A DNA stretch of 64,000 bases from Bacillota bacterium (GCA_016278515.1 JADQBR010000028.1:1-64000); one strand, 5' to 3'. Positions 9,501 to 58,448 are shown, counted from the first letter of the stretch. A program made the numbers and translations. The notes: generated by a model from the sequence alone, not told the origin.

Positions 9501-9590
9501 TTAGTTGGTAAGTTGGTCAGTTGGTCAGTTGGTTAGTTGGTTAAGGTCTTAAACCTTTCCAACTTTTCCAACCTTCCGCTTTCCAACTTT
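9501..9590. repeat. Octamer repeat island R1
   Basis: Five tandem 8-nt units of the AGTTGGTC/AGTTGGTT/AGTTGGTA type are followed by a centre GGTCTTAAACC and then inverted units (TTCCAACT, TTCCAACC, TTCCAACT). It lies between lysC and tRNA-Pro. Together the halves could form a long imperfect hairpin. Confidence 0.8.
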
Positions 9591-9592
9591 CT

Positions 9593-10828
9593 TTAGCAGG
9601 CTGCTGAAGCTTCTTCTGCCCCATCCAGGTCGAACTTGTTGTGGATAGAGGTGACGGCGTTATGGGCTTCATCCTGTTTAATAATACAGGATACTTTTAT
9701 TTCTGAAGTGCTTATCATTTGGATGTTAATTGCTGCGTCCGCTAATGCCTCAAACATGGCTGCCGCGACCCCCGGGTTACTGACCATACCTGCACCAACG
9801 ATAGATACCTTAGCCACGTTACTGTCATAAGTAAAGCCTTTTGCCCCTATCTCTTCCTTAATTTTTTCCATAGCCTGAAGTGCTTTCGCCAGATCGTCCT
9901 GGGCAATGGTGAAACTTATATCATTTACGTCTTTTCTATTAGCACTTTGAATAATCATGTCTACGTTAACATTCTGAGCTGCTAGGGTGCAAAATAATTT
10001 CTGTGCGATACCCGGTTGGTCCGGTACATCAAATAAAGCCATCTTTACTACATTTAAATCGTGGGCAACTCCGCTTACCAACATTTCTTTCTCCATCGAG
10101 CCAACCTCCTGTACAATAGTTCCCGGATTTTTATTGAAACTTGAGCGAACATGCAGTTTTACCTGATGCTGCTTTGCAAATTCTACCGCTCTGGGCTGCA
10201 ATACAACTGCACCTAAACTTGCCAGCTCCAACATTTCGTCATAGGAGATACTATTTAATTTTTGCGCCCGGGGCACTAGCCTGGGATCACAAGTGTAAAC
10301 TCCTTCTACGTCCGTAAATATTTCACAGACATCAGCATTAACCGCAGCAGCTAATGCCACCGCCGTAGTATCCGAACCACCCCGTCCGAGAGTGGCAATA
10401 TCTCCTTTGGGGTTGCGTCCTTGGAAACCGGCTACCACTAGAATTTTATCCTGGCTTAATTCCCGCTCCAACCTTTCCGTATCCACTCCCATAATTTTTG
10501 CTTTTGAGTAAACTTCATTGGTTGATATGCCTGCTTGGGGTCCGGTTAAGGAAACTACTTTTTCCCCCATACTATCGATCGCCATAGCGAGCAAGGCTAC
10601 GGATACTTGTTCTCCAGTTGAAAGCAGCATATCCATTTCCCGATCAGAGGGGTTGACATTTAATTGATTTGCCATGGCTATGAGATCGTCAGTGGTATCC
10701 CCCATGGCAGAAACTACTACAATGACGTTATCTCCTGCGCGTTTAGCCTCGACTACCCGTTTGGCAACTCTAATAATTCTTTCCGGATTTGCCACAGAAC
10801 TTCCGCCAAATTTTTGTACTACCAGCAT
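9593..10828 (-). CDS. lysC: Aspartate kinase
   Basis: Phosphorylates aspartate to aspartyl-phosphate, the first step to threonine, methionine, lysine and diaminopimelate, in the cytosol. The 411-residue protein has the amino-acid-kinase domain (KFGGSS near residue 5, GRGGSDTTA at about 150) and two C-terminal ACT domains (about 265-410, FDVPDQPGIA and VSIVGAGM). This is the layout of feedback-regulated monofunctional kinases. I start at the ATG at 10828, 8 nt after GGGGGAG; the GTG at 10837 lies too close to that site. Its start overlaps the end of thrB by 10 nt, making it the last gene of the hom-thrC-thrB-lysC run. Which end product inhibits it cannot be read from sequence. Confidence 0.95.
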   Translation of the reverse strand: MLVVQKFGGSSVANPERIIRVAKRVVEAKRAGDNVIVVVSAMGDTTDDLIAMANQLNVNPSDREMDMLLSTGEQVSVALLAMAIDSMGEKVVSLTGPQAGISTNEVYSKAKIMGVDTERLERELSQDKILVVAGFQGRNPKGDIATLGRGGSDTTAVALAAAVNADVCEIFTDVEGVYTCDPRLVPRAQKLNSISYDEMLELASLGAVVLQPRAVEFAKQHQVKLHVRSSFNKNPGTIVQEVGSMEKEMLVSGVAHDLNVVKMALFDVPDQPGIAQKLFCTLAAQNVNVDMIIQSANRKDVNDISFTIAQDDLAKALQAMEKIKEEIGAKGFTYDSNVAKVSIVGAGMVSNPGVAAAMFEALADAAINIQMISTSEIKVSCIIKQDEAHNAVTSIHNKFDLDGAEEASAAC

Positions 10829-11745
10829 GATGTCCACTCCCCCTTATGTTGAATCTCTACCCCTTTTGGACAAGCAGTTAAGTATTTTATATTACAAACC
10901 ACTCCCGCTTGGGAGAATGCTTGTTTCATACTATCTCCTATACCCTTTATCTTGTTCTTGTTATTTACAAAAGCAATTACCGTGGGCCCAGCACCGCTCA
11001 AGGCCACAGCCAATGCTCCCTGTTCTTTAGCAGCGGCAAACACATCATGCATTCCCGGCACTAAATCTAAGCGATATGGTTGATGCAGCTTATCATCCAT
11101 CATCTGCCCCAGCAAGTCGTAGTCCTTTTCAACTAGGGCCCATACCAGCAAGCTAGCCCTGCTGACATTAAATACTGCATCGTTAATGGGAACCTGTTTA
11201 GGTAAAATATTCCGAGCAACCTTGGTAGAAAGGCTGAACTGCGGTATCGCCAATACTATATCCATATCCTCGAGCGGATCAATTCGCCTATAGATCTGCT
11301 GATCATCTAATTTGGCTGATACCACGATACCACCTAGCATTGCAGGGGCAACGTTGTCGGGATGCCCTTCGAAATTCGCCGCCATTTGCAGTAATTCATC
11401 TCTAGATAATTTATTTCCAACCAACTGGTTTGCAGCGACCAAACCGCCAACGATGGCCGAAGCGCTGCTTCCCATTCCCCGGGAGGTAGGAATATTAATG
11501 GTTTGATGGATTGATAGTCCTTTTGGAAAATAATTCACTAACTTAAAAACCTGCCGCGCTGCCTGGTAGACGACATTTCGCTGGTCTAAAGGGATGTCTG
11601 CGCCATCTTGTCCTAGCACCTCAATTTTCAGGCCATGCCGACTTTCCTTCATTTCCATATAATTATACAGTCTTAATGCCATTCCAATAGTGTCAAATCC
11701 TGGTCCCATATTCGCTGTAGTTGCCGGCACCCTAACTTTTACCAT
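10819..11745 (-). CDS. thrB: Homoserine kinase
   Basis: Converts homoserine and ATP to O-phosphohomoserine, the substrate of threonine synthase. It is a GHMP-family kinase: VPATTANMGPGFD at the start, the glycine/serine-rich ATP loop PTSRGMGSSASAIVGG at about residue 95, and ALSGAGPTVIAF near the end. The ATG at 11745, preceded by AGGTGA, is chosen because an upstream in-frame extension to 11859 reads through pyrimidine-rich spacer and lacks homology. That gives 308 residues, normal for the family. The gap of about 80 nt to thrC (11746-11824) contains only this low-complexity spacer. Confidence 0.93.
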   Translation of the reverse strand: MVKVRVPATTANMGPGFDTIGMALRLYNYMEMKESRHGLKIEVLGQDGADIPLDQRNVVYQAARQVFKLVNYFPKGLSIHQTINIPTSRGMGSSASAIVGGLVAANQLVGNKLSRDELLQMAANFEGHPDNVAPAMLGGIVVSAKLDDQQIYRRIDPLEDMDIVLAIPQFSLSTKVARNILPKQVPINDAVFNVSRASLLVWALVEKDYDLLGQMMDDKLHQPYRLDLVPGMHDVFAAAKEQGALAVALSGAGPTVIAFVNNKNKIKGIGDSMKQAFSQAGVVCNIKYLTACPKGVEIQHKGEWTSCW

Positions 11746-11824
11746 ACCCGTCACCTGTCTTCTTTCATCGTCTCCTGCTCTTAATCTTTTGCCCTTGACC
11801 TTCTCCTGCTTCTTGCTTCCTGAA

Positions 11825-12874
11825 TCAGCTATTAACAATCTCCAGCACCGCTGCTTCATCGGCAGGAACGGAATATGGCTTAGATACCTGCTTAATGGCC
11901 GTATCAGGATCCTTTAAGCCGTTTCCAGTCAACACACAGACTATCGTATCTTCCTTATTGAATAAACCTTGTTTGGCCTCTTTAATGACACCGGCAACAG
12001 ATGCTGCTGAAGCAGGTTCTGCAAAGACGCCTTCTTTTTGCGCTAACAATCGCTGGGCTGCCAGTATCTCTTCATCAGTAACCATCTTGATAAAGCCGCG
12101 GGAGTCTTTGGCTGCTTCAACAGCGCTCTTCCAACTGGCGGGATTACCTATTCGAATAGCAGTAGCTACTGTCTCAGGGTGCTCCACCACTCTGTCATGA
12201 ACGATCGGTGCAGCGCCTGCTGCTTGGAAACCAATCATTTTAGGCAGGTTCTTTGAACGACCTGCTTCTTGATAACGACGGAAACCCCGCCAATAGGCAG
12301 TAATATTACCGGCATTACCTACGGGAATAGCCAAGTACTGAGGTGCATCACCTAAAACATCACAAACTTCGTAAGCGCCAGTGGTCTGGCCCTCAATGCG
12401 ATAAGGATTAAGGGAATTTACCAAGGTTATGGCATTCTTTTCAGTAATGCTGCGGACAATGTTTAACGCATCATCAAAGTTTCCTTGAATGGCAATCACT
12501 TTGGCACCATAGATTAAGGCTTGGGCCAGCTTACCTAAAGCAATATTTCCTTCAGGTATTACGACGCTGCAGGTTAAGCCGCAGCGTGCGGCATAAGCGG
12601 CAGCAGCAGCAGAGGTATTTCCGGTAGAGGCGCACATAATAGATGTGGACCCCTCTTCCACTGCCTTAGCAACTGCCATAACCATTCCCCGATCCTTAAA
12701 AGAACCGGTAGGGTTCAACCCCTCATATTTGACGTAAATATTGACGCCTAATTCTTCAGACAAGTTATTTGCCCTGATTAAGGGGGTATTTCCTTCTTTT
12801 AAAGAAATCATCGGTGTCTTTTCTGAGACCGGCAGATATTCTTTATAAGTTTCTAATAGTCCAGCCCAAGCCAT
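11825..12874 (-). CDS. thrC: Threonine synthase
   Basis: PLP enzyme turning O-phosphohomoserine into threonine. It has 349 residues, the short class typical of Firmicutes. The PLP lysine is in [10 protein letters not shown] (about residue 60), the phosphate loop is [12 protein letters not shown] (about 185), and [12 protein letters not shown] lies near the end. The ATG at 12874 shares its first base with the last base of the hom stop (TAATG), a sign of translational coupling. Confidence 0.95.
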
Positions 12875-14169
12875 TATTCATCCTCTCCTTCAACCCTTAT
12901 TACGTTTGCTATGTCCTTGGTTATTGACATACCCTTAATGATGGACAAAGCATCCTGTAAATTTTGTTCCTTTACTTTATGAGTAATCAAAACCACCTCT
13001 GCCAAGGCCTCAACATTCCTCTTTTGAATTACCGTTGCAATACTGACCTTTTGGTTACCAAGGACGCTTGCAATACTAGCTAAAACGCCCGGCTCATCTT
13101 TTACTATTAAGCGCAGGTAATACTTAGAGGTAATGTCGCCGATGGGCTTAATCTCTTTCTCTTCATAACAAGTACAGCCTATACGGCCGGTGACGTTACT
13201 TTGAATATTTCTTGCCACTTCAATGACATCGGCCACCACTGCACTGGCAGTTGGTAGTTCCCCGGCACCGGGACCGTAAAACATGGTTTCACCTACGGCG
13301 TCGCCGGTAACAAAAATAGCATTAAATGCATCATTAACCGCTGCCAGAGGATGGGCATTAGGTATAAATACGGGATGTACCCTCACTTCTACCTGACCTT
13401 CCTGGTCTTTGGCAATACCCAGCAGTTTGACTGTATAACCCAACTCATTGGCGTATTTAATATCCATAGCACCAACTTTGGTAATTCCCTCTACATAAAC
13501 GTCCTGATAGGTTACCCTTGTATTAAAAGCCACTGAAGCTAAAATCGCTGTTTTTCTCGCAGCATCCAATCCTTCAATGTCTGAAGTAGGATCTGCTTCT
13601 GCATACCCTAACTGTTGCGCTTCGGAAAGCACATCATTAAAATCTCGACCTTCCTTGGTCATTTTGGTAAGAATAAAGTTGGTAGTACCGTTTATAATAC
13701 CCATGACACCGCTGACCTTGTTTGCAGCCAAACACTGCTTTAAGGGACGGATAATGGGAATCCCTCCCGCCACGCTGGCTTCAAAGAACAAGTCAGTATG
13801 GTGTTCTTTTTCAGCATCAAATAATTCTTTTCCATGCTCCGCAATTAAGTCTTTATTAGCGGTCACTACATGTTTTCCTCCACGCAGCGCCTTTAAAATA
13901 TAGGTCTGGGCCGGTTCAATTCCACCCATTACCTCTACCACAATATCAATGTCCGGGTTATCCAATACTTCCTCTACTTTATTGGTCATCACTCCCGGCG
14001 CTATTTTAATATTTCGCTCTTTATTTATGTTATTAACAACAATTTTCTCAACACTTATAGACGCACCTACTCGGGAAGTAATGGAATCCGCATTTTGAGT
14101 TAATACCTTATAAACGCCGGTTCCAACTGTTCCGAGACCCAACATTCCAACTCGTATGGTTTTCCCCAT
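12874..14169 (-). CDS. hom: Homoserine dehydrogenase
   Basis: Reduces aspartate semialdehyde to homoserine with NAD(P)H. The 431-residue protein has an N-terminal Rossmann fold ([10 protein letters not shown]), the catalytic domain with NGTTNFIL and [11 protein letters not shown] at about residues 165-205, and a C-terminal ACT domain (about 350-425, [16 protein letters not shown]) for feedback control. It follows the ACT-domain gene and precedes thrC, overlapping it by one base. The length and domains are standard. Confidence 0.95.
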
Positions 14170-14212
14170 CTTTTACAGCACCTCTCTTATTCTAAATTTC
14201 AGTTACCAGTCA

Positions 14213-14659
14213 TTATGTCTGACCGACCAGATCAACTTTTTTAACCCCGGTAATTTCTGCCACTGTCTCAATCATTTCATCAATATGCATATGCATTTCG
14301 CCAATGTCAATAGAAATGGATACGTTGGCTACTCCTTGCAAGGGAATATTTTGGTTAATTGTCAGCACATTGCCCTGAGCATTGGCGATGGTATTTAAGA
14401 GTTTAGACAACACCCCAGCTTTATGTTCCAACAGCATACTAATAGTTATAATCTGTTCTTTACTGGCATTGTGAAAAGAAAAAATACCTTCTCTATATTT
14501 GTAGAAAGCACTGCGGCTTAAGCTGACTTTGCTTACCGCCTCGTAAATAGTATTGGCTTCACCCCTGGCCAGAAGTTCCTTGGCCTGGGCCGTTTTGACA
14601 ATAGCTTCAGGTAAAATTGCAGCATCTACAATATAAAGCTTTTTACCGTACGGACACAT
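14213..14659 (-). CDS. ACT domain protein, PheB/UPF0735 type
   Basis: The product is 148 residues. The first half is helical (EAIVKTAQAKELLARGEANTIYEAVSKV followed by SRSAFYKYREGIF), and the C-terminal ACT domain begins ITISMLLEHKAGVLSKLLNTIA. These small ACT proteins sit next to hom in many Firmicutes and are thought to bind amino acids as regulators; the B. subtilis relative was named pheB. It is the first gene of the threonine run and lies behind an extended -10 promoter. No enzymatic residues are visible; a regulatory role is inference. Confidence 0.85.
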   Translation of the reverse strand: MCPYGKKLYIVDAAILPEAIVKTAQAKELLARGEANTIYEAVSKVSLSRSAFYKYREGIFSFHNASKEQIITISMLLEHKAGVLSKLLNTIANAQGNVLTINQNIPLQGVANVSISIDIGEMHMHIDEMIETVAEITGVKKVDLVGQT

Positions 14660-14716
14660 TATAACCCACCTGCCTTTTGTCCTTCTACAAAATACATCAA
14701 TCCGTGTACGATAGAC

Positions 14717-14740
14717 ATTATAGCATAAGAAGTGCCGTCA
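14717..14740 (-). promoter_or_regulatory. Extended -10 promoter for the ACT-hom-thrC-thrB-lysC run
   Basis: On the minus strand TGC-TATAAT (14725-14717) is an extended -10. A weak -35 candidate (TTTCCT) lies 17 bases upstream. It is about 58 nt before the ACT gene start. I saw no lysine riboswitch or T-box in this leader. Confidence 0.45.
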
Positions 14741-14788
14741 GGAAAGATGTTATTTTAAATTTTGCATTTAACTGCTTTAATATATAAT

Positions 14789-14827
14789 AACGGAGGTTGA
14801 AGAAAACTAATCCTTCGAACCTCCGTT
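14789..14827 (-). terminator. Terminator hairpin after metY
   Basis: AACGGAGGTT and its complement flank a 19-nt interior that adds a GAAG/CTTC pair. On the minus strand the stem is followed by a T/A-rich tract, and it begins 5 nt after the metY stop. Confidence 0.65.
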
Positions 14828-14831
14828 ACCG

Positions 14832-16118
<1,287 letters not shown>

Positions 16119-16182
16119 CTATTAATAGTCTGTTTTTAAGTAAGATAGAGCTTCGGCTTACGGCTTATCAAAAATTATTATT

Positions 16183-16330
16183 AAAAAACCTCTTCTGGGT
16201 AAGAAGAGGCTATTTCCATATACCTCCTTATCTTACAGGTTAATCCTGCAGGAATTAGCACCTTTCCCGTTTTCCGAGAAGGTTGCTGAGCTTCATAGGG
16301 CCAGTCCCTCCACCACTCTTGATAAGATTT
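16183..16330 (-). promoter_or_regulatory. SAM-I (S-box) riboswitch controlling metY
   Basis: On the minus strand a P1 stem CTTATC/GATAAG (16326-16321 with 16232-16227) encloses the S-box signatures AGAGTGGTGGAGGGACTGG, CTATGAAGCTCAGCAACC and AGGTGCTAATTCC. It is followed by a terminator stem CCTCTTCT/AGAAGAGG (16189-16209) and TTTTTT. SAM binding should stabilise P1 and permit the terminator, shutting off metY. Confidence 0.95.
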
Positions 16331-16358
16331 AAAACACTTTATAATTTGTGTTATTACT

Positions 16359-16387
16359 AATATACATGTCTTATTATTAAAAGTCAA
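16359..16387 (-). promoter_or_regulatory. Sigma-A promoter of the SAM riboswitch-metY unit
   Basis: On the minus strand TTGACT (16387-16382) and TATATT (16364-16359) are 17 bases apart, placing the start of transcription about 25 nt before the aptamer. Confidence 0.75.
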
Positions 16388-16439
16388 TATAAAATATCGG
16401 AATACAAGGAATTAAATCCGCCAGCCTTACACTTAATGC

Positions 16440-16907
16440 TTACTCGTTAGAGATACCAGGCAATAGATTACTCATCTCAAGCGCAGTTACTCCAGCATCC
16501 CAGCCCTTATTGCCAGCTTTAGTGCCGGCCCGTTCAATAGCCTGCTCAATAGTATCAGAAGTTATAACGCCGAATATTACCGGTTTATTGGTGTCCAAGC
16601 CGACTTTGGCAATTCCTTTAGACACTTCACTGGCAACAAAATCAAAGTGGGGCGTAGCTCCCCGAATTACTGTTCCGAGGCAAATAACTGCATCATAATT
16701 CTTCGCTGCCATCGCTTTGGCAACAAGCGGAATTTCAAAAGCACCTGGAACCCAAGCTACTTCAACATCGTCTTCTTCAACGCCATGGCGCTTTAATGCA
16801 TCTAATGCTCCGTCTAGCAGCTTACCAGTAATAAATTCGTTAAACCTGCCAACTACAATTCCAAACCTTTTCCCTTTACCTAACAGTTTACCTTCAAAGA
16901 CCTTCAT
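16440..16907 (-). CDS. ribH: 6,7-dimethyl-8-ribityllumazine synthase
   Basis: Condenses 5-amino-6-ribitylaminouracil with 3,4-dihydroxy-2-butanone 4-phosphate, the penultimate riboflavin step; usually a 60-mer capsid. It has 155 residues: [28 protein letters not shown], and the [15 protein letters not shown] segment with the catalytic His. It is the last gene of the ribD-ribE-ribBA-ribH cluster and sits 17 nt after ribBA. Confidence 0.96.
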
Positions 16908-16924
16908 TTGTTATTTTCCCCCTC

Positions 16925-18121
16925 TTAACTGCTTAATAAATGCCCCAGCTTTGTTTTTTTAGTACTTAAATAAAATTTATTAGTGTCCACCGGACATATT
17001 TCAATGGGCACCCGTTCAACCACTTCTAAACCGTAACCTTCTAACCCTTTGATTTTTCTCGGATTGTTTGTCATTAATTTAATTTTCCTCAGTCCGATGT
17101 CTGCCAGTATCTGGGCCCCAATTCCATAATCCCGCAAGTCTGCGTCAAACCCAAGGGCTTCGTTGGCTTCTACAGTATCTTTGCCTTCATCCTGCAATTT
17201 ATAAGCCCTTATTTTATTAACCAAACCAATACCTCGGCCCTCCTGACGCATGTAAAGCAGCACTCCGCGCCCTTCTTCTTCGATTTTACGCATAGCGGTG
17301 GCCAACTGGTCGCCGCAATCACATCGTTTGGAACCAAAAACATCTCCAGTCAGACATTCGGAATGGACCCTGACCAGCACCGGTTCATCACCAGTCACAT
17401 CACCCTTTACCAATGCAAGATGCGCCTCCCTATCCAGCATACTTTCGTAGGCAGCTACCAAAAAATCGCCATAAGCAGTGGGAAGTTTAATAGTTTCTAC
17501 TTTTTTGACCAGTTTTTCTTTATGGCGCCGGTATTCTATTAAATCGGCTATGGTAATGATTTTCAAGTCGTGCTCTTGCACAAAGTCCATTAACTGAGGC
17601 ACCCTGGCCATGGTGCCGTCTTCATTCATGATCTCACAGATCACTCCAGCAGGATATAATTGAGCCAACTTTGCAAGATCTACAGCGGCTTCGGTATGTC
17701 CGGCTCGGCGCAACACTCCGCCTTTTTTGGCTCGCAGCGGGAAAATATGCCCCGGTCTGCGCAAATCTGCAGGCATTGTTTTCTTATCCAAAATTGCAGC
17801 CACAGTTTGAGCTCGTTCGTGAGCGGAAATACCGGTGGTGGTGTCAATATGATCTACGGATACGGTAAAGGCCGTTCCTTGATTGTCTGTATTCCGTTGA
17901 ACCATCGGTTCCATTTCAAGTTCATCAATCCTGCTGCCGGTTAACGGGACGCATACCAACCCTCGACCGTATTTGGCCATAAAGTTAATTGCTGCAGCGT
18001 CAGCTTTTTCAGCCGCAATTATTAAGTCTCCCTCATTTTCCCGATCTTCGTCATCAACAACTACTATCATTTTACCGGACCGGATATCTTCAATAGCTTC
18101 TTCTATAGTATTAAATTTCAT
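16925..18121 (-). CDS. ribBA: 3,4-dihydroxy-2-butanone 4-phosphate synthase / GTP cyclohydrolase II
   Basis: Bifunctional enzyme feeding both branches of riboflavin synthesis. The N-terminal domain (about 1-200) has the acidic metal site [12 protein letters not shown], the RPGHIFPL and HTEAAVDL segments of RibB. The C-terminal domain (about 205-398) is GTP cyclohydrolase II with the Zn-binding [24 protein letters not shown] and [11 protein letters not shown]. The length of 398 is standard. A 220-nt gap containing repeat island R2 separates it from ribE. Confidence 0.96.
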
Positions 18122-18137: not shown

Positions 18138-18282
18138 ATTAGTTGGACAGTTCCTTATTAGTTGGAAAGTTCCTTATTAGTTGGAAAGTTGGTCAGTTGG
18201 TCAGTTGGACAGGTTAAGAACCAGACCGAATAACTGAATAATTAAGTGATTAGTTGGTTAGTTGGATAGGTTAAGATCCTAA
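18138..18282. repeat. Octamer repeat island R2
   Basis: About ten units of AGTTGGAC, AGTTGGAA, AGTTGGTC or AGTTGGTT lie between ribE and ribBA. Three early units are spaced by TTCCTTATT insertions. Unlike the other islands it has only the forward-oriented half, ending twice in AGGTTAAGA. Confidence 0.75.
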
Positions 18283-18284
18283 CA

Positions 18285-18304
18285 TCGGGGACATTCCTGT
18301 CCCC
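18285..18304. repeat. Short GGGGACA/TGTCCCC palindrome
   Basis: GGGGACA and TGTCCCC are separated by TTCC, and a further GTGTCCCC follows at about 18332. It lies between repeat island R2 and the end of ribE and may serve as a terminator or be a remnant of a dispersed repeat. Confidence 0.45.
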
Positions 18305-18344
18305 AAAGGATGACTGTAAGCTTCAGCAGGTGTGTCCCCTTTCC

Positions 18345-18995
18345 TTAAACAAAGCCATTTTCAGCGAGAAACGCCTCTGTAATACTTTGCTCCTTTTTGT
18401 TGGTTTCATTCCAACTCAATAACCTGGCAACATATTTTGCGAGCATATCGGTTTCGATATTAACATTATCACCGACGCCTTTTATTCCTAAAGTAGTTTC
18501 CTTGGCGGTATGGGGAATTAAAGATACGCTAAAGCTGTTAGCTTCGACTTCAACCACTGTCAAGCTGATACCGTCGATAGCTACGGAGCCTTTAGGAATG
18601 AGAAACCGTAATGTATCAGAAGATGTCTCTATCCAGGTAACTTGCGCTATATCCACCTGCTCCTGTTTTATGATAGTTCCCACCTGATCAACGTGACCGC
18701 TGACCAAGTGCCCGCCCAAGCGGCCCCCCATGCGCATGGCCCGTTCCAAGTTAACCGCATCCTTTGCTTTTAACCACTTAAGATTAGTGCGATTGACAGT
18801 CTCGGCCATAACATCGGCTGTAAAAAAGGCACTGTCAGAGGCGGTAACAGTCAGACAAACCCCATTGACTGCAATACTATCGCCAACTTGTACATCTTTT
18901 AGTACTTCTTTTGCCTGAATATCCAGTTTAGCCGATTTAGGACCGTGCCTGATTCCTCTGACAGCTCCTAATTCTTCAATGAGACCGGTAAACAT
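18345..18995 (-). CDS. ribE: Riboflavin synthase alpha chain
   Basis: Dismutates two lumazines to riboflavin. Two homologous lumazine-binding halves are visible: one beginning MFTGLIEELG with VGDSIAVNGVCLTV, the second with GGHLVSGHVDQVG and GSVAIDGISLTVV. The protein is 216 residues from the ATG at 18995, which gives the family-typical MFTGLIEE start. Another ATG two codons upstream is only 4 nt from the GGAGG site. It follows ribD by 22 nt. Confidence 0.95.
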   Translation of the reverse strand: MFTGLIEELGAVRGIRHGPKSAKLDIQAKEVLKDVQVGDSIAVNGVCLTVTASDSAFFTADVMAETVNRTNLKWLKAKDAVNLERAMRMGGRLGGHLVSGHVDQVGTIIKQEQVDIAQVTWIETSSDTLRFLIPKGSVAIDGISLTVVEVEANSFSVSLIPHTAKETTLGIKGVGDNVNIETDMLAKYVARLLSWNETNKKEQSITEAFLAENGFV

Positions 18996-25268: not shown

Positions 25269-25320
25269 TTGGTTAGTTGGTTAGGATTCCTTTTCCAACT
25301 TTCCAACTTTCCAACTTTCG
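25269..25320. repeat. Octamer repeat island R3 (short)
   Basis: Two forward units (GGTTAGTTGGTTAGGA) are followed by three inverted units of TTCCAACT. It lies between the DUF512 gene and der. It has the same arrangement as the larger islands but is the smallest of the set. Confidence 0.7.
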
Positions 25321-46739: not shown

Positions 46740-46985
46740 TAAGTTGGACAGTTGGTCAGTTGGACAGTTGGTCAGGTTTTAAACCCTTCCAGCCTTCCAA
46801 CCTTCCAACTCTTCCAGCTTTGAACCTTTCCACCTCTTCCAACCTTCCAACTCTTCTAACTTTGCAACTATCTACTCTACTCTTATGTTACGTAGGGGGA
46901 GGCTAGTCTATTACCAGATTCAGTTGGAAAGTTGGTTGGTTGGTATTTTCCTGTCCAACTTTCCAACAGTCCAACTTTCCAACTA
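46740..46985. repeat. Octamer repeat island R4 (largest)
   Basis: Four forward units (AGTTGGAC, AGTTGGTC, repeated) and AGGTTTTAAACCC are followed by a long run of inverted units (TTCCAACC, TTCCAACT, TTCCAGCT). A second small set sits near 46921-46983 (AGTTGGAAAGTTGGTT, centre GGTATTTTCC, then TCCAACTTTCCAACAGTCC). It lies between two divergent genes. It overlaps no coding sequence. Confidence 0.85.
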
Positions 46986-47074
46986 AAATAAAGTAGTACC
47001 GCTTTAGGCTCAGTTACGTATTATGTATTGAGGCGGTATTAACACGCACTTAACGCTGTCAGGAGGAATGGAAC

Positions 47075-50358: not shown

Positions 50359-50374
50359 GACGGCCTCCTTTTTA

Positions 50375-50565
50375 GTTGGTCAGTTGGAAGAGTTGGTCAG
50401 TCGACAGTTGGACAGTTGGTCAGGATTTAAAACCTTTCCAACTGACCAACTGACCAACCGACCAACTTTTATCTTTTATCTTTTTGCTTTCCAACTTACC
50501 AACTTTTATCTTTTATCTTTTTCCTGACCAACTGACCAACTTTCCAACTGTCCAACTTATCTACT
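50375..50565. repeat. Octamer repeat island R5
   Basis: Forward units (AGTTGGTC, AGTTGGAA, AGTTGGAC; about five) end in AGGATTTAAAACC, followed by about ten inverted units (TTCCAACT, GACCAACT, GTCCAACT) interspersed with the twice-repeated word TTTTATCTTTTATC. It fills most of the 289 bp between cobO and the zinc-ribbon gene. Confidence 0.85.
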
Positions 50566-50887: not shown

Positions 50888-50891
50888 AACA

Positions 50892-51380
50892 TCATCCCCT
50901 CTTTCCTGGTTTATCTTTATTTTTACTCCATTTGTCCGTTTTAGCACCAAGGGACTCGAGTAGATTAGCCACTTCATTAACCTTATCATTATTTGTCTCG
51001 ATGACAGCTAATATCTTGCCCCGCTTTACATCATTCTGATATTTCCCTGCGGCAGAATCAGATACCCCGTAAAAGGTTAAAGAGTCACTAATATTCTTGT
51101 CTTCTTGGGAAACCGCACCTGCCAACGGTCCGCCTGCAGTGACTTTTCCAACACCAGGGAGATCGATCTCGTCCACCTGAACCAACCATCCTTCCAGCGC
51201 ATCAACCCCCGGAATAGATACCTCATCGGCAGCTTCCATTTTAGCTAGTCTCTTTAGAGGTGTAACCAGCGATATCTGATTTTTGGCCAGCTCTCTTTCA
51301 TTAATCTTTTTAACAGCATCAACTGCCTGCTGCATGCCATTAAATACCCCAACTACAGTTTGTCTTATGCTCAATGACAT
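50892..51380 (-). CDS. YflT-like general stress protein
   Basis: From the ATG at 51380 this is a 162-residue protein: TVVGVFNGMQQAVDAVKKI with KNQISLVTP, then a glycine-rich middle (LPGVGKVTAGGPLAGAV) and a C-terminal domain (GKILAVIETNNDKVNEVANLLESLGA). The organisation matches Firmicute YflT/heat-induced stress proteins that repeat this alpha-beta domain. GGAGG lies only two or three bases before that ATG, so the TTG at 51374 or the ATG at 51398 is also possible. Function unknown. Confidence 0.65.
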   Translation of the reverse strand: MSLSIRQTVVGVFNGMQQAVDAVKKINERELAKNQISLVTPLKRLAKMEAADEVSIPGVDALEGWLVQVDEIDLPGVGKVTAGGPLAGAVSQEDKNISDSLTFYGVSDSAAGKYQNDVKRGKILAVIETNNDKVNEVANLLESLGAKTDKWSKNKDKPGKRG

Positions 51381-51466
51381 TTCCTCCTTAGTCGGCATGT
51401 GATGATTCCAAATGTTTACTTTGAGACATCTATTAGCTTAAACTATTTATGTCCATTTATACATTA

Positions 51467-51595
51467 AGTTGGACAGTGGGAAAGTTGGTCAGTTGGTCAG
51501 TTGGTCAGTTGGTCAGGTTAAAGGTATAAAGTTGGTTGGTTGGAAAGGTTTTAAAACCTGTCCAACTGTCGACTGACCAACTGTCCAACTATATT
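51467..51595. repeat. Octamer repeat island R6
   Basis: About six forward units (AGTTGGAC, AGTTGGTC, AGTTGGTT) reach GGTTTTAAAACC, a perfect palindrome. Inverted units follow (GTCCAACT, GTCGACTG, ACCAACTGTCCAACT). It lies between two divergent genes. Confidence 0.85.
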
Positions 51596-51691
51596 ATAGG
51601 CTAGCTTTCAGACAAATTGGTTACTTAGATTTTATATGATATTATAATTATGAATATGACTATCGTTTAACCTTTACAGGAGGAATTGGCT

Positions 51692-52396
51692 ATGGACAGG
51701 TTACAAAAGGTGATTGCTCGCGCAGGCATTGCATCACGAAGAAAAGCTGAAGAAATGATCAGTGCCGGGGAGGTCAAGGTGAATGGGAAAGTAATAACGG
51801 AAATGGGCCTAAAGGTGGATCCGAAGCAAGATTTTATTGAGGTAGATAATCAACCCTTAAGAAACAGTGAAGAAGAAAAAGTCTACATACTGCTGCATAA
51901 ACCTAAGGGTTATGTTACCACTGTCAAGGACCCCCAGGGAAGGTCAACCGTATTGGATCTAGTTAAGGTGCCCCAACGCATTTATCCCGTAGGTAGATTG
52001 GATTATGATACTTCCGGACTGCTTATTTTAACCAATGATGGGGATTTAACGTATGCACTAACCCATCCTAAACATGAAGTAGATAAAGTTTATCAGGCCC
52101 GGGTTAAGGGGCATCCTACCACGAATGCCCTGGATAGATTGCGCCAAGGAATCCTGTTAGAAGACGGACCTACAGCACCGGCAAAAGTTAAGCAGCTGAA
52201 AGCCTTTCGTGAAACAACTATACTGGAAATTACCATCCATGAGGGGAGAAATAGACAGGTCCGCCGAATGTGTGGTGCAATCGGGCACGAAGTAGCTGAC
52301 TTGAAAAGAATTGCCATTGGCAGCCTGCATTTAGGCAGTTTAAAACCGGGCGAATATGTGCAGACCAGTTTGAAAACAATAGAGAAAAACACTTAG
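51692..52396 (+). CDS. rluB: 23S rRNA pseudouridine synthase, RluB/RsuA type
   Basis: The 234-residue protein has an N-terminal S4 RNA-binding domain (RLQKVIARAGIASRRKAEEMI) and the pseudouridine synthase core with PVGRLDYDTSGLLILTNDGDL (catalytic Asp in GRLDYDT) and EGRNRQVRRMCGAIGH. It modifies a uridine in the 23S rRNA helix 90 region in characterised relatives. GGAGG sits 8 nt before the ATG; an in-frame TTG at 51686 is nearer to it but less good. Convergent with spmB, sharing a 4-nt overlap. Confidence 0.92.
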   Translation: MDRLQKVIARAGIASRRKAEEMISAGEVKVNGKVITEMGLKVDPKQDFIEVDNQPLRNSEEEKVYILLHKPKGYVTTVKDPQGRSTVLDLVKVPQRIYPVGRLDYDTSGLLILTNDGDLTYALTHPKHEVDKVYQARVKGHPTTNALDRLRQGILLEDGPTAPAKVKQLKAFRETTILEITIHEGRNRQVRRMCGAIGHEVADLKRIAIGSLHLGSLKPGEYVQTSLKTIEKNT

Positions 52397-52935
52397 CCCC
52401 CGCCAAATAGCAGGTTGATAATGAATATTGAAGCCAACAAACCGCTGGCATCTGCTATTAAACCAAGGGTAACAGCATATCTGTACTTTCTAATACCTAC
52501 AGAGCCGAAGTAGACAGTAAGTACATAAAAGGTAGTATCAGTGCTACCTTGCATTGTTGAAGCCAATTTACCGATGAAGGAATCAGGTCCATGGGCCCCG
52601 ATTAATTCGGTCGCTATCCCTAGGGCGCCTCCCCCAGATAACGGTCGCATTACGGCAAGAGGCAATACCTCTCCTGGCGCACCAATTAGACTCATTATTG
52701 GATCAATAACACGGACAAAGATGTTCATGGCTCCGGAAGCCCGAAATACGCCTATAGCAACCAGCATTCCAACCAGAAAGGGAATTATTCTGATAGCAGT
52801 TTCGAAGCCTTCTTCCGCTCCTTCCACGAAGGTTTCATATACTTTGACGCCTCGGAAGAAACCAATTAAAGGAATAGTTAAAAGCAAAAATGGTATAGCC
52901 CATCTTGATATTTGAGAAACAATGTTTAAAAACAT
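52393..52935 (-). CDS. spmB: Spore maturation protein SpmB
   Basis: Polytopic membrane protein needed with SpmA for proper spore core dehydration. The 180 residues contain about five hydrophobic segments and the conserved PFLLLTIPLIGFFRGVKVYE, PLAVMRPLSGGGALG, and STMQGSTDTTFYVL. It follows spmA by 4 nt, the usual order. It overlaps the rluB stop on the opposite strand. Confidence 0.94.
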   Translation of the reverse strand: MFLNIVSQISRWAIPFLLLTIPLIGFFRGVKVYETFVEGAEEGFETAIRIIPFLVGMLVAIGVFRASGAMNIFVRVIDPIMSLIGAPGEVLPLAVMRPLSGGGALGIATELIGAHGPDSFIGKLASTMQGSTDTTFYVLTVYFGSVGIRKYRYAVTLGLIADASGLLASIFIINLLFGGG

Positions 52936-52939
52936 AGCG

Positions 52940-53533
52940 TCACCTCCGGTGGCGTGCTCTATAACGCGCCCTTAGTATCTTATCTGCTGAAACAGCCACC
53001 ACTGTCCCCACCGCCGTGGCGAAGATAGTTGGCCCCACAATCTCCGTAGGGTCTGCAGACCCCGCCGCCACGCGTATTCCTATGATAGTGGCCGGTATTA
53101 AGGTAATGCAGGAGGTATTTATGGCTAAAAACGTGCACATTGCTTCACTGGCTTCCTCTGGGTCATTATTAAGCTTCTGCAGTTCCTGCATAGCCTTTAG
53201 ACCGAAAGGCGTGGCAGCATTTCCCAATCCTAAAATATTTGCACTAATATTCATAATGATGGCGCCCATGGCAGGATGTTCCGAGGGTACTGACGGGAAC
53301 AAAAACCGCATAACTGGTCTGACAACCCTGGATAGAAAATTAACCATTCCCGCTTTCTGCGCAATTCTCATCAGGCCCAGCCACAACGCCATCAGGCCGA
53401 TAATCTCAATAGCAATATTGACTCCTGACTGGGCCGAATCCATTGCTGCTTTAGTCACCACTTCAATTTGACCGTTTATTCCTGCCACTATAATTCCTGA
53501 TATTAAGAGAGCCAACCAGATAATATTAACCAT
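52940..53533 (-). CDS. spmA: Spore maturation protein SpmA
   Basis: Membrane partner of SpmB. The 197 residues have about five hydrophobic segments and the family motifs IEIIGLMALWLGLMRIAQKAGM, NILGLGNAATPFGLKAM and FLAINTSCITLIPATIIGIR. The operon dacF-spmA-spmB is conserved in spore formers. Confidence 0.94.
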   Translation of the reverse strand: MVNIIWLALLISGIIVAGINGQIEVVTKAAMDSAQSGVNIAIEIIGLMALWLGLMRIAQKAGMVNFLSRVVRPVMRFLFPSVPSEHPAMGAIIMNISANILGLGNAATPFGLKAMQELQKLNNDPEEASEAMCTFLAINTSCITLIPATIIGIRVAAGSADPTEIVGPTIFATAVGTVVAVSADKILRARYRARHRR

Positions 53534-53730
53534 GTTTTCCTCCTTGAGCTTTGCTTACACAGACTTTATAAACGAGCATCCCAGCACGTCCTATAAATAA
53601 AACTATGAGAAAAGACAAGTATTTAGAACTTTAAACAATGGGGAATGATTTTCAAACAGGAAATTTATAAATTAATAAATCCCCTGCTTAATATAAGCAA
53701 GAGATTAAAAAGAGGGGATTCTAAAAATAC

Positions 53731-53780
53731 ATGTTCAAAAAAGTCCATAGTAGCTCACCTGCGGTGGACTTTTTGAACAT
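53731..53780. repeat. Palindromic element P2, core GCTCACCTG
   Basis: ATGTTCAAAAAAGTCCA (53731-53747) pairs with TGGACTTTTTGAACAT (53765-53780), one base bulged. The loop contains GCTCACCTGC. It lies downstream of dacF and probably ends that transcript, but the loop core is shared with the element at 38729-38770. Confidence 0.75.
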
Positions 53781-53783
53781 ACT

Positions 53784-54923
53784 CTATAAGCTTAGGATTG
53801 ATACCAGCGCCTGCCAGAAAGATACCAGGTAGGACTCTTTTTCTACAGTTTCTGCTGCAATCAAATCCACTGCAATTAGTTGTTTATCTTCCAGAAAAAA
53901 TTTAACCTGTCCCAGCCATTGACCTTGGTGCACCGGAGCATTGATTTCATTTGGCAGGACAATCTGTTTCTTGATTTTTGTTTTTTCCAAAGTTAAAACG
54001 GGTAAGGATAGGTCTGCCTTAGACACAACTGGCACCGTTTCCTTAACCCCATTTTTTACTATCAAATACCCCGCTAATTCTCCCTTTTTTAAGACACTGG
54101 TCTGCCGGAAAGAGCCAAACCCCCATTCTAATAAATTCTTACTCTCTCCATAAACGTCTCGTGCATTAAGCACTACCGCAAGTAATGATTGACCGCCCTT
54201 AGTTGCAGAGCTGACCAAGCAGTTTCCTGACTGACTTGTATAACCCGGCTTTACCCCATTTGCATAGGCATAATATTCATCCTCACCGGTAAGAAGACGG
54301 TTCTTATTCTTTATCAACTGTGGTTTTGACAAACCCTGCCTATCTACCGGCTGCATCGTTGTACTAGCCATGGTACGGAATACAGGGTGTTTTAACGCAT
54401 ATCTTGTAATTAAGGCCAAGTCATAAGCGGTAGAATAGTGATTATCAGCGTCCAAGCCGTGGGGATTTGCATAGCTGGTGTTTTTAGCCCCTATTTTCGT
54501 AACAAATTGATTCATCTCCCGGATAAATTTCTTTTCACTGCCGGAGACGGCTTCTGCCAGAGCCACAGCAGCGTCATTCCCGGACTGAAGGAGCAGTCCA
54601 TACAGCAAGTCTTTTACTGATAAAATCTCGCCCTCATGCAGCCCCATGGAGGCCTCGCCGATAGCGGCTGCGTGCTGGCTGATACGAACTTGTTTATTTA
54701 AGTCCAGTTTTTCTAAGGCCAGAACAGCCGTGGTGATCTTAGTCGTGCTAGCCTGGGACAAACGCTGATGCATGTTTTTGGCATATAGTATTCGCCCCGA
54801 CTCTAAATCCATTAATAGCGCTGAGTGAGCATTAACGTTTGGTTGGGCATATGCAGTAGGCCCTATCAGAAAAATTATTACTATCAACAGTGCAGATACT
54901 TTTAAGCAATGCCTAAGCTGCAA
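53784..54923 (-). CDS. dacF: D-alanyl-D-alanine carboxypeptidase, DacF-like
   Basis: Serine S11 penicillin-binding protein that trims the stem peptide of peptidoglycan, acting in spore cortex assembly. The 379 residues have a signal peptide (about 1-25), the SxxK catalytic Ser/Lys in ASTTKITTAVLAL, the SGN motif in LLQSGNDAA, and NGVKPGYTSQSG where KTG is usual (here KPG). A C-terminal beta domain follows, with a hydrophobic end that may anchor it. Position before spmA and spmB supports dacF, though dacB-type cannot be excluded. Confidence 0.88.
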   Translation of the reverse strand: MQLRHCLKVSALLIVIIFLIGPTAYAQPNVNAHSALLMDLESGRILYAKNMHQRLSQASTTKITTAVLALEKLDLNKQVRISQHAAAIGEASMGLHEGEILSVKDLLYGLLLQSGNDAAVALAEAVSGSEKKFIREMNQFVTKIGAKNTSYANPHGLDADNHYSTAYDLALITRYALKHPVFRTMASTTMQPVDRQGLSKPQLIKNKNRLLTGEDEYYAYANGVKPGYTSQSGNCLVSSATKGGQSLLAVVLNARDVYGESKNLLEWGFGSFRQTSVLKKGELAGYLIVKNGVKETVPVVSKADLSLPVLTLEKTKIKKQIVLPNEINAPVHQGQWLGQVKFFLEDKQLIAVDLIAAETVEKESYLVSFWQALVSILSL

Positions 54924-55099
54924 GAAGCAACATCCTCTCTCCGATATAAGTGCGTGTTCCGAACAATAACTATTTCTGCAACTATAATATTTATTAAAGG
55001 AGAGAGAGGATTATCCTTCTATTTTTTTCCAGCAGCATACGCCAAAAAACGCATGCACTAATTTTGCACGCGTTCGATGAGTAAACCTATTTTATAAAA

Positions 55100-55546
55100 C
55101 TATACCCCGCCTTGTAAATTGGAAGACTGTTTAGTCTCCTGCTTCTTTCCGCCGTTTCTTTGGGTGCTGTTCATCATAGATTTAATTTGATCAATTACTT
55201 GAGGGGCTAAATCAATAAGTCTGTCATAAATAGCATTATTATCCACAGGCAGTAATCTTACTTTATCTTCCTTGACCACCAAAAATCCCATTGGTTGAAC
55301 GGAGATACCTCCTCCACTGCCTCCACCGAAGGGAAAACCTTGCTTTTCACCACCTCCACCGCCTTTCTCCCCTTGAAATTCGCTGCCGCCTGCGGCAAAA
55401 CCGCAGGAAACTCTAGAAACAGGAATAATAACGGTCCCATCAGGGGTTTCTACCGGGTCACCGACTACAGTATTAACATCCACCATCGATTTTAGGCTTT
55501 CCATAGCTGTCTGCATTAATGATTCAATTGGGTGATTCTCTGCCAT
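55100..55546 (-). CDS. ytfJ: Sporulation protein YtfJ/GerW
   Basis: The 148 residues start at ATG 55546, after AAGGGAGTGA; a longer frame from 55651 overlaps the DUF2953 gene and is not used. The family landmarks are ENHPIESLMQTAMESLKSM, VVGDPVETPDGTVIIPVSRV, the Gly-rich loop and GGISVQPMGFLVV. A polar tail follows. It is a forespore protein required for germination in B. subtilis. Confidence 0.92.
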   Translation of the reverse strand: MAENHPIESLMQTAMESLKSMVDVNTVVGDPVETPDGTVIIPVSRVSCGFAAGGSEFQGEKGGGGGEKQGFPFGGGSGGGISVQPMGFLVVKEDKVRLLPVDNNAIYDRLIDLAPQVIDQIKSMMNSTQRNGGKKQETKQSSNLQGGV

Positions 55547-56220
55547 ACGCTCACTCCCTTTGTTTGCGAAGTTATAATTAGAGATACAATTAGTTTTAAT
55601 ACCCGAACTCCTGCAATAATAATATAGCCTAATCGCACCCTTAATATGCAATCAAATTCAATCCTTAAACCCGGTTTATCATAATTAGGAGTCACATTGA
55701 GCTTAATTACTTGATGTCCCATCTTTATGCTGCGCGATATTTGTTGAACCAAGAGACTCTTGCCTGCCCAAAGAGTACCTGCGGTAATTCCAGTAATTGA
55801 AGCGTCCTTAAAACCAAATTCCGTATCCCATTGCAGCTTCAAACAACCCACACGACTCAACAAATTTCTATTGATAGTTACCAACTTAGCACCAGCAACT
55901 AAATATTCGGGCGTTAAATTTAAAATCTTCGGCAACTTATACCATGGAGGTTTTGTCACTTTGACTTCTGATTTAACAACAGGCTTTTGATTGATACCCT
56001 CCAATTCCCCAAATATTTTTAAATATGGCTCCAGCCCTTGGAATCTTAACTGGATGATAGGAAGCTCCAATTTAAACATAGGTATGTAATGAAAAGGGCG
56101 ATAATATACCATGAAATGGTCGTTACTAGCGTGCCTGCTATATCTCAGTCTAACGCTGATGGGCATAATAATAGCAATTAAAGTAATAACCGGGATTATG
56201 AGAAAGTAATATTCAAACAT
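55516..56220 (-). CDS. DUF2953 family protein
   Basis: The 234 residues from the ATG at 56220 begin with an N-terminal membrane segment (about 4-26, FLIIPVITLIAIIMPISVRL). Strands and a C-terminal hydrophobic patch follow (LGYIIIAGVRVLKLIVSLII). DUF2953 genes are frequently next to ytfJ, as here (overlapping its start by 31 nt), and appear only in spore formers. Molecular function unknown. Confidence 0.82.
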   Translation of the reverse strand: MFEYYFLIIPVITLIAIIMPISVRLRYSRHASNDHFMVYYRPFHYIPMFKLELPIIQLRFQGLEPYLKIFGELEGINQKPVVKSEVKVTKPPWYKLPKILNLTPEYLVAGAKLVTINRNLLSRVGCLKLQWDTEFGFKDASITGITAGTLWAGKSLLVQQISRSIKMGHQVIKLNVTPNYDKPGLRIEFDCILRVRLGYIIIAGVRVLKLIVSLIITSQTKGVSVWQRITQLNH

Positions 56221-56405
56221 TATAAGACACCGCATTTTTAAAGAAATATTTAATCTATCCTTATTCTTCCACTTTTCCATCCAAATTTATACTATAAAGC
56301 GAAACTTGCATCAGGCGGGGTTTTATACCCCATCTGATGTTTAGTTAAGCATATCCAGGAGCTTAACACAGCTCATCTCCTTTCCCTAACTGAAGCGGGG
56401 GTATT

Positions 56406-56444
56406 AAAAAAAGGCCAGGCACATTTCATGGGCCTGACCTTTTT
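56406..56444. terminator. Bidirectional terminator after metS/metP
   Basis: AAAAAGG, CAGGC and CAT pair with ATG, GCCTG and CCTTTTT around a TTC loop, with T runs on both sides, just past the MetS-like gene. Confidence 0.85.
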
Positions 56445-56453
56445 GATTAAGAT

Positions 56454-56555
56454 TTAATCCACTTGCTTTTTCATTGCTACGCTAATACAGTAGGCAGCGC
56501 CGCCCCAGAGTACCACCATAGCAAAAATCATCATTACAATTGCACTACCACTCAT
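56454..56555 (-). CDS. metS: MetS-like small subunit of NSS transporter
   Basis: A 33-residue single-pass membrane peptide (SAIVMMIFAMVVLWGGAAYCISVAMKK). It begins at an ATG 5 nt after GGGGGCT and lies 3 nt downstream of the Na+ symporter gene. This matches the MetS family, the small partner of MetP in Corynebacterium. The peptide is below most gene-calling cut-offs. The pairing with its transporter is the main evidence. Confidence 0.75.
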   Translation of the reverse strand: MSGSAIVMMIFAMVVLWGGAAYCISVAMKKQVD

Positions 56556-56558
56556 AGT

Positions 56559-58082
56559 TTAGCCCCCTATCTCACTTTGCTTTTCAAAGCTTTCTACGTT
56601 AAGACGCTCTTCATTGGTCCATTTCATGGACTGCATGATAAACCCGCCAACGATTGTAGCGATAAATGCTAACCAACCAAATACAAATAATGCGCTACTA
56701 GTGTAATCTCCATAATTTGTAGTTAAATCACCATAAAGATTAGCAATAGCCATGTAACCCAGAACTACAGGGGTTACAATTTTTAACATAAAGCTCCACC
56801 AAGCCCCTACTGCGAAATCGGACATGGGGTTAATGTACTTCTTAATACTATCCAGGTTAAAGAACCATGCAAGAAGAATAATCTCGACCAAACCACCGAA
56901 TACAATACCAAAGCTGTTCATCCAGTGATCAAGAACGTCAAGAATTAACAGTCCGGCTCCGGTAACAAACAGCATACTTACAATAAATGCAACAGCAGAA
57001 TAGAAGTTAACTACCTTTTTACGCGATAGGTCAAACTTATCCATTAAACCGGAAATAACTGCTTCATTAATGGAAATTGCTGATGATAGTCCTGCAAATA
57101 CCAGCGACAAGAAGAAGATTGCTCCAAATAGTTCCGGCATAGGCAGGTTGTTAATAGCAATTGGGAAAACAACAAATGCCAAACCAATACCACCAGCAGC
57201 GACGTCTGTAACAGCAACGCCCTCAACATGTGCCATGTGTCCAAGTACACCAAAAACAGCTAAACCAGCGAGCAAACTAAAGCCACAGTTTAATAATGAT
57301 ATCATAAATCCATTGTTGACAATGTCAGTTTTCTTTGGCAGGTAACTGGAGTAAGCAATCATGATGGCAAAACAAATACTCAAACTAAAGAAAATTTGTC
57401 CGTAGGCTGCCACCCATACTTTATAATCAAAAATTCTGCTGAAATCAGGCTCGAATAAATAGTTAAGTCCAGTCGAAGCACCTTCCAAAGTCACCCCGCG
57501 GATTGCCATAATGACAACTAGAATGAAAAGCACGGGCATGAAAATCTTGTTCGCCTTTTCAATACCTTTCTTTACACCACCGGCCAAAGCGGCATAAATA
57601 ATGATCCAAGCAAGCACAACGGGAATTAATACTCCCATTTGAATACCGCCCAATTGGAATTGCCCACCTGTAATACCTAGATAGCCATAAAAGAAACTCT
57701 CTGATGATCCTAAATCTGCACCCCAAGCTTGGGAGAGTCCAAAGTAGGCATAGGCTAAAGAATAACCAATAATAGCTACATAATAAACTGCAATAAAGAA
57801 ACTTACAAATGTCTGCATCCAGCCTACCCATTCCCATTTGCGGTTAATCTTTGCAAAGGTTAGCGGTGCTGAACCCCTGTTCTTTTGGCCAATTGCCAAT
57901 TCAAGAATAATAATAGGGATACCGGCTGTTAAGAGCGCAAATAAATAAGGAATAAAAAATGCACCCCCGCCGTTATCAAACGCTGTGTAGGGAAATCGCC
58001 AGATGTTGCCTAGACCGATAGCCGAGCCAACAGCTGCCAGAATAAACCCAGTCCTGGTCCCCCACTGTTCTCTACTTTCCAT
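56559..58082 (-). CDS. Sodium-dependent transporter, NSS family (MetP-like)
   Basis: The 507-residue symporter has 11-12 membrane segments. The N-terminus SREQWGTRTGFILAAVGSAIGLGNIWRFPY contains the conserved Na+-binding segment of SNF/NSS proteins; GGGAFFIPYLFALL follows. The ATG at 58082 is 5-6 nt after the AAAGGAGTTGAGG site. With the MetS-like peptide behind it, methionine and alanine uptake is the best guess; substrate is not decided by sequence. Confidence 0.9.
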   Translation of the reverse strand: MESREQWGTRTGFILAAVGSAIGLGNIWRFPYTAFDNGGGAFFIPYLFALLTAGIPIIILELAIGQKNRGSAPLTFAKINRKWEWVGWMQTFVSFFIAVYYVAIIGYSLAYAYFGLSQAWGADLGSSESFFYGYLGITGGQFQLGGIQMGVLIPVVLAWIIIYAALAGGVKKGIEKANKIFMPVLFILVVIMAIRGVTLEGASTGLNYLFEPDFSRIFDYKVWVAAYGQIFFSLSICFAIMIAYSSYLPKKTDIVNNGFMISLLNCGFSLLAGLAVFGVLGHMAHVEGVAVTDVAAGGIGLAFVVFPIAINNLPMPELFGAIFFLSLVFAGLSSAISINEAVISGLMDKFDLSRKKVVNFYSAVAFIVSMLFVTGAGLLILDVLDHWMNSFGIVFGGLVEIILLAWFFNLDSIKKYINPMSDFAVGAWWSFMLKIVTPVVLGYMAIANLYGDLTTNYGDYTSSALFVFGWLAFIATIVGGFIMQSMKWTNEERLNVESFEKQSEIGG

Positions 58083-58280
58083 GACCTCAACTCCTTTGTT
58101 TAATAATTTGTAAAAAAGATAAAATATCACCTACAATTTAACATTTATTCTATAATGACTTCCATAATCCTCCCTTGGACGATACATTTTTATGCCAAAT
58201 TGTTTTTTTCTCTTTTTTCTCACAATTTTTACAATATTCTGCGTAACAAAAAACAGGTCCCGAAGAACATGCCTAATAAG

Positions 58281-58448
58281 AGTTGGTCGGTTGGTCGGTT
58301 GGTCGGTTGGTCGGTTGGTCGGTCGGTCGGTTGGTTGGTTGGTTGGTTGGTTGGTTGGTCGGTTGGAATCTTAAACCTGTCCAACTTTCCAACTGTCCAA
58401 CTGTCCAACTTTATACCTTAACTTACCAACTGTCCAACTGTCCAACTT
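58281..58448. repeat. Octamer repeat island R7 with tetranucleotide expansion
   Basis: Starts with about five GGTTGGTC octamers, then collapses to a GGTC/GGTT tetranucleotide tract of at least eight copies (58319-58360). A centre TCTTAAACCTG follows, then inverted units GTCCAACT and TTCCAACT. It lies between the transporter gene and scpB. Confidence 0.85.

Follow-up and report, generated by a model that had tools for sequence, protein, structure and literature searches.

The closest described systems are inserts in rRNA genes and two kinds of dispersed repeat. The intervening sequences (IVSs) of 23S rRNA are selfish elements that have complementary ends, occur with or without an S23 ORF and are sporadically distributed; they are removed by RNase III without ligation (PMC4990558). 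The cyanobacterial STRRs consist of 7-bp tandem units, are intergenic and form hairpins, and their function is not known (PMC2670836); a paper cited in PMC2858038 reports in its title an STRR within rnpB of heterocystous cyanobacteria. REP sequences carry a GTAG/CGTC tag (PMC3733652).

Here we describe islands of an 8-nt unit, AGTTGGNN, in a 64,000-nt stretch (the window) of contig C36 from a draft Bacillota genome (G000). These AGTTGG islands resemble the IVSs in their selfish-element form, complementary ends, optional S23 ORF and sporadic distribution. They differ in lying in the spacers of protein genes, in about 50 copies, gene-less and with arms that are visibly 8-nt tandem units, and because of this location we do not file them as classical rRNA IVSs; the wider S23 class also reaches beyond rRNA, into rnpB and spacers. 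As in the STRRs, the units are short, tandem and intergenic, present in many copies and hairpin-forming, and the S23 genes of cyanobacterial plasmids carry heptamer arms. The descriptions of the STRRs nevertheless set the islands apart, since their unit has 8 bp rather than 7 (that of STRR2 is TTGGTCA) and their host is of Bacillota type. The logic of the REPIN/RAYT systems is analogous, with gene-less palindromes beside a minority of gene-bearing copies, but S23 is not a HUH nuclease, the arms are tandem arrays and the GTAG/CGTC tag is lacking. Finally, the accessory protein Avd of diversity-generating retroelements (DGRs) is a four-helix bundle homologous to S23 (the G000 S23 protein gives a weak bAvd match, and there are tblastn hits), but Avd genes adjoin a reverse transcriptase and no short-unit arms were found at them.

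A dispersed family of octamer islands

A reading of the window made from its sequence alone had proposed a dispersed, mostly palindromic and intergenic family with an 8-base unit and variable copy number, in seven islands. All seven were recovered (Table 1), and the family is far from a chance occurrence: AGTTGGNNAGTTGG (two tandem units) matched 31 times in the window, against a mean of 0.01 and a maximum of 1 in 100 dinucleotide shuffles, and genome-wide three consecutive exact units were found 39 times and GTTGGNNAGTTGGNNA (two units) 120 times, with 0 matches for the backwards control patterns. From stretches of the 4.27-Mb genome we parsed 51 islands, one of them beyond the window at contig position ~70,570, and the family comprises some 50 islands genome-wide, dense on the window contig and at C40:63-72.6 kb. 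The islands lie between long ORFs, as had been claimed, with overlaps at ORF ends only. The claim that the integrated element at 96-9403 is free of them also holds, as no array was found in 1-9403. Among the islands with a defined gene strand, 25/43 have both arms and 18/43 a single one.

Two of the proposed islands had to be redrawn. That at 46740-46985 is correctly located but consists of two palindromes (46742-46866 and 46922-46984), and that at 18138-18282 is mainly one-directional, with a 19-bp sub-repeat. The proposed hairpins were supported for six palindromes, those at 9501, 46740, 46915, 50370, 51460 and 58305, whose predicted RNA folds are better than those of shuffles (z -3.1 to -11.2); they were not for the island at 18138, and the fold at 25269 is weak. 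Island 2 is abutted, at 18283-18348, by a second dispersed palindrome (GGGGACATTCCTGTCCCC, ~65 bp, ~20 genome copies), which is REP-like yet not paired up beside Y1 transposases.

Table 1. Octamer islands of the window, with their neighbours and the z-score of the predicted RNA fold against shuffles
Island	Position	Organisation	Setting	Fold z
1	9501..9590	Palindromic; five AGTTGGNN units (9503-9542), centre AAGGTCTTAAACCTTT, three reverse units to 9588	lysC ORF end 4 bp away	-5.96
2	18138..18282	Mostly one-directional; three copies of the 19-bp sub-repeat, then AGTTGGNN units to AGGTTAAGAACC; a second short array ends in AGGTTAAGATCC	Occupies the ribBA-ribE gap; ribBA 19 bp away	-1.34 (not significant)
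3	25269..25320	One forward unit, centre AGGATTCC, three reverse units	der on one side, DUF512 radical-SAM gene on the other	-1.8
4a	46740..46866	Forward AC, TC, AC, TC (16-mer doubled), centre AGGTTTTAAACCC, long degenerate reverse arm		-3.1 to -3.5
4b	46915..46987	Separate palindrome; forward arm with GTTGGTTGGTTGG, centre ATTTTCCTG		-5.9
5	50370..50560	Long palindrome; centre AGGATTTAAAACCT; right arm plus 2.5 copies of a 37-bp tandem	Ends just ahead of the cobO Shine-Dalgarno, 15 bp upstream of the gene	-11.2
6	51460..51595	Palindrome; two forward arrays, centre AGGTTTTAAAACCT	Divergent genes either side	-6.9
7	58278..58450	Forward arm drifts to GGTTGGTC + (GGTT)n, centre AATCTTAAACCT; reverse arm contains a 37-bp tandem	scpB 14 bp away	-5.4

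The common form of the element is (AGTTGGNN)n-AGG-[TTTTAAAA or AAAAGCTTTTGAACTT]-CCT-(NNCCAACT)m, with an AT-rich centre, and one arm may be absent. The inner boundary is nearly constant, with AGG closing the forward array and CCT opening the reverse one. Half-islands usually retain the AGG, and other Clostridia carry arrays that end in AGGAAAAG; the boundary therefore belongs to the element itself. Arm length changes by the gain of units, as shown by higher-order tandem duplications of 16, 19 and 37 bp inside the islands and by a 227-bp tandem duplicate on C40 in which the second copy carries additional units. Longer repeats that contain such arrays were seen elsewhere: in Gudongella and Soehngenia (L086, L104, L109) an AGTTGG...AGGAAAAG array sits mid-way in a palindromic repeat, GTCATTCTGAG...GGGATGACAG, and in genome G044 (L192-L211) a longer dispersed element encloses the AGTTGG arrays, and its flanks are conserved over at least 60 bp on each side.

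The variable pair of the unit is 72% purine on the gene strand, compared with 50% under random flips of the islands (reached in 0/20,000) and a spacer background of 54%; the arms therefore mismatch at those positions, and in-register arm pairs have equal variable bases in 1/37 cases where 4.7 are expected (p ~0.03). An avoidance of perfect palindromes, considered because of an initial count of 1/44 against 9, was discarded, most of it being explained by the strand bias (p ~0.03).

Stems of this kind in operon spacers could be functional RNA regulators that set the stability, termination or translation of the mRNA of the next gene. Many islands do fold far better than shuffles, they occupy spacers between genes of one orientation, and a strand bias is seen in their variable bases, although the purine bias may merely reflect strand composition. 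We think regulation very unlikely, however: the same-family genomes G001 and G002 have no AGTTGG-type arrays, the corresponding ribBA spacer of G001 included; the stems lack a downstream T-run in the sequences read; the neighbours have no gene function in common; and unit number is erratic. Intergenic homology to G001 and G002 that would allow an empty-site comparison is lacking, and target duplication at the AGTTGG islands is not significant (6/51 against 3.4 expected).

As extragenic palindromes, in a genome with six Y1_Tnp matches, the islands might instead be REP/REPIN-like and owe their movement to a tyrosine transposase of the REP-associated type (RAYT, Y1_Tnp). This is hardly credible, because none of the Y1 genes has an octamer array beside it in the stretches read (on C156, the closest array is ~4 kb from a Y1 fragment) and tandem octamer arms are unlike a REP of 20-40 bp with its GTAG/CGTC tag.

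The Rfam search of the window returned riboswitches and a tRNA only, and no exact array ending in AGG was found in viral contigs. A strict palindrome search of 399 genomes of the phylum gave convincing results only in the islands' own genome (10 sites) and in G234 (2), the rest being chance-like. The 8-nt unit itself extends beyond the genome and was also found in other Clostridia, in Bacteroidales and in Pirellulaceae.

S23 genes and the arrays at their borders

A family search for S23 (PF05635, the 23S rRNA intervening-sequence protein) identified only three genes in G000, none of them in the window. Two (70,659 and 72,526) belong to the island cluster on C40; the third, on C26, is intact and bracketed by GTTGGAAAGTTGAAAGG...CCACTTTCCACTTTCCAACT. 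The G000 S23 protein matches PDB 2gsc (E 1e-20). All three genes are bordered by GTTGG-type units, in or beside arrays, and islands outnumber S23 genes by about 15 to 1 in this genome. Neither the window nor the stand-alone islands contain an S23 sequence or relic. One island on C26 has an array of an 11-mer as one arm and a CCAACT array as the other, and such mixed arms, 11-mer on one side and 8-mer on the other, indicate that full complementarity is not required.

The organisation of these loci recurs in other genomes. In a set of 65 S23 loci from Bacillota, Bacteroidota and a planctomycete, analysed with 250-bp flanks, the two flanks have a median of 10 inverted 8-mers in common, and at least three in 51/65 loci (78%), compared with 21/93 for other ORFs within these loci and with 18% when flanks of different loci are paired (Fisher p 2e-12); about a fifth of the S23 loci have no inverted arms. 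Inverted matches outnumber direct ones, and the nearest inverted word lies at a median of 38 nt before the S23 start and 13 nt after the stop. In predicted folds the flanks pair mutually over a median of 22 bases, against 7 with foreign flanks. The complementary ends of the S23/IVS class are present in the islands as inverted arrays. Periodicity was detected in 36/65 S23 flanks and in 3/195 control windows, with periods of 7 nt (19 loci), 8 nt (7), 14 nt (5) and 11 nt (3), and the arm units differ between genomes. The 8-nt period, which the sequence-only reading had found close to neither a codon multiple nor a helical turn, is one of several lineage-specific periods (7, 8, 11) at S23 genes across phyla. 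Five loci of the set (L250, L296, L303, L307, L313) are 23S IVSs with short-unit arms.

Where arrays stand alone, their unit is the one found at the S23 genes of their genome. The 11-mer AACNATNGTTA flanks S23 in G044, G017 and G095, where it occurs 21, 28 and 33 times, respectively. It is absent from six genomes in which other units flank S23 (G057, G234, G049, G001, G177 and G100); in G000 it is found in four places, all on the S23 contigs C26 and C40. The 7-mer AGGAGNN flanks S23 in G097 and G013; its counts in these two genomes are 154 and 15, compared with 0-9 outside the genus, and a congener, G131, has 18 AGGAGNN places and no S23 match. The stand-alone arrays that were read contain no S23.

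Across 61 relatives, S23 was found in 3/3 array-bearing genomes and in 11/58 others (p 0.01). No match was obtained in STCSWMC_22 (G399), the most array-rich genome found, or in five more of the 14 genomes with arrays that were searched; S23 is therefore not needed to keep the arrays, which persist or grow without it. STCSWMC_22 (L051-L152) is crowded with composite 8-mer and 11-mer arrays, with 163 places of the 11-mer pair.

Some features of the S23 neighbourhoods were also noted. At L314 (positions 1-1900, on C26 of G000) and L164 (12.5-20 kb), genes for a PIN-domain toxin, KilA-N, RhuM and S23 lie between islands near polysaccharide genes, as if the islands delimited cassettes of small accessory genes, and a gene that reads like RhuM also lies immediately upstream of an 11-mer-bracketed S23 in G044 (L256). 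Several S23 genes lie beside polysaccharide genes (Polysacc_synt_2 or sugar-transferase-like) in unrelated genomes (L246, L247, L081, L164, L249); the profile check of these neighbours covers that on C40.

Filled and empty sites

S23 genes on plasmids were found mostly in filamentous cyanobacteria, and one position there, site A, lies between two hypothetical genes on closely related plasmids. It is empty in the plasmids of Nostoc linckia, Tolypothrix and Aulosira (L350-L352), which read GTAATTAACAAATA. In those of Trichormus and Scytonema (L332/L333) it is filled by an S23 gene enclosed by inverted CAGGAGT/CAGAATT heptamers; GTAAT is present on either side of the insert, and the flanks are 97-98% identical. 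Nostoc C052 (L349) retains the left arm and the first 40 S23 codons (tblastn 2e-16), and Brasilonema (L353) carries an S23-less palindrome of the heptamers found in L332/L333. The gene-less form (L353) can therefore be compared at one site with L332/L333, L349 and L350-L352, in cyanobacteria and with a 7-mer, that is, in a different phylum and with a different unit from those of the AGTTGG islands. The S23-less palindrome at this site indicates that the element also exists as a pair of arms without the gene.

Other sites behave likewise. Of two neighbouring sites on a pair of Nostoc plasmids (L339/L342), each is filled in one plasmid and empty in the other, and each insert includes both arms; the nrdB-nrdA and cas6-cas4 junctions also occur both filled and empty. 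Target duplications differ from one S23 site to another. In G049 (L302, 1229-2003), an S23 gene with GAAGTTGG-type arms forms an insert of more than 400 nt in the RNase P RNA gene, and the Rfam alignment places both arms within the insert. Since the arms are absent from empty targets and inside the inserts at filled ones, we conclude that they travel with the S23 gene. Judged by its sequence, L304 looks like the RNase P RNA S23 insert of G049. In the cas6-cas4 spacer of Dolichospermum (L355, 1916-2162) there is a different palindrome, GTAGGTTGGGTTGACG...AACCCAACCTAC, where Anabaena sp. 90 holds S23.

These sites bear on the simplest alternative, namely that the arrays are ordinary short tandem repeats produced by replication slippage in unconstrained spacers, where S23 settles because they are a safe target. 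Unit number does change by tandem duplication (the 16-, 19- and 37-bp repeats and the C40 duplicate), arrays are present in genomes without S23, and similar arrays occur in many phyla. Nevertheless, the targets at site A, nrdB-nrdA, cas6-cas4, L339/L342 and rnpB are array-free, and it is with the gene that the arms arrive; inversion of the arms about the S23 ORF is far more frequent than in controls; and slippage leaves unexplained some 50 dispersed palindromes with one common unit and an AGG...CCT inner boundary. We therefore regard slippage as the origin of the arrays as improbable.

The islands as probable gene-less S23 elements

Membership of the AGTTGG islands in the S23/IVS class is well supported. 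Taken as a whole, the best explanation is that they are probably gene-less (non-autonomous) members of this class of selfish elements, as suggested by their Brasilonema-like organisation, the unit they have in common with the S23 genes of G000, and their excess of about 15 to 1 over these genes. The earlier statement that the islands match no known element is accurate for their sequence, which is not that of REP, BOX, ERIC or CRISPR, but not for their class, as they correspond to the arms of S23 elements.

The full element consists of a short tandem-unit array, a small ORF for the S23 four-helix-bundle protein, and an inverted array. In G000 the AGTTGG islands may have spread as S23-less copies, aided by the resident S23 protein, for which we know of no catalytic domain, and by host enzymes. 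In RNA the arms would pair into a long imperfect stem, presumably harmless in spacers and, by analogy with the IVSs in 23S rRNA, one that RNase III could cut out of the transcript outside rRNA as well. Arm length would vary in both directions through slippage or recombination among the units, and the unit would drift lineage by lineage.

More broadly, we lean, with some reserve, towards the view that S23 and its lineage-specific short-tandem-repeat arms form a large mobile class that has gone unrecognised, present in at least Bacillota, Bacteroidota and Cyanobacteriota and inserted in spacers, 23S rRNA and RNase P RNA, and that many mystery intergenic repeats, the STRRs included, may be its gene-less offspring. 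In the open-access literature we found nothing that contains these repeat strings or that links S23 to dispersed short tandem repeats. Short tandem repeats of bacterial spacers have been described for decades, to our knowledge with no origin or function given, and S23 proteins are common, again with no function that we know of. The link between them merges two puzzles into one testable problem, in which an element has arms and may or may not carry a gene, and near-identical plasmids offer both filled and empty sites; it also hints at the purpose of the S23 protein and at why the inserts of rRNA and RNase P RNA look alike.
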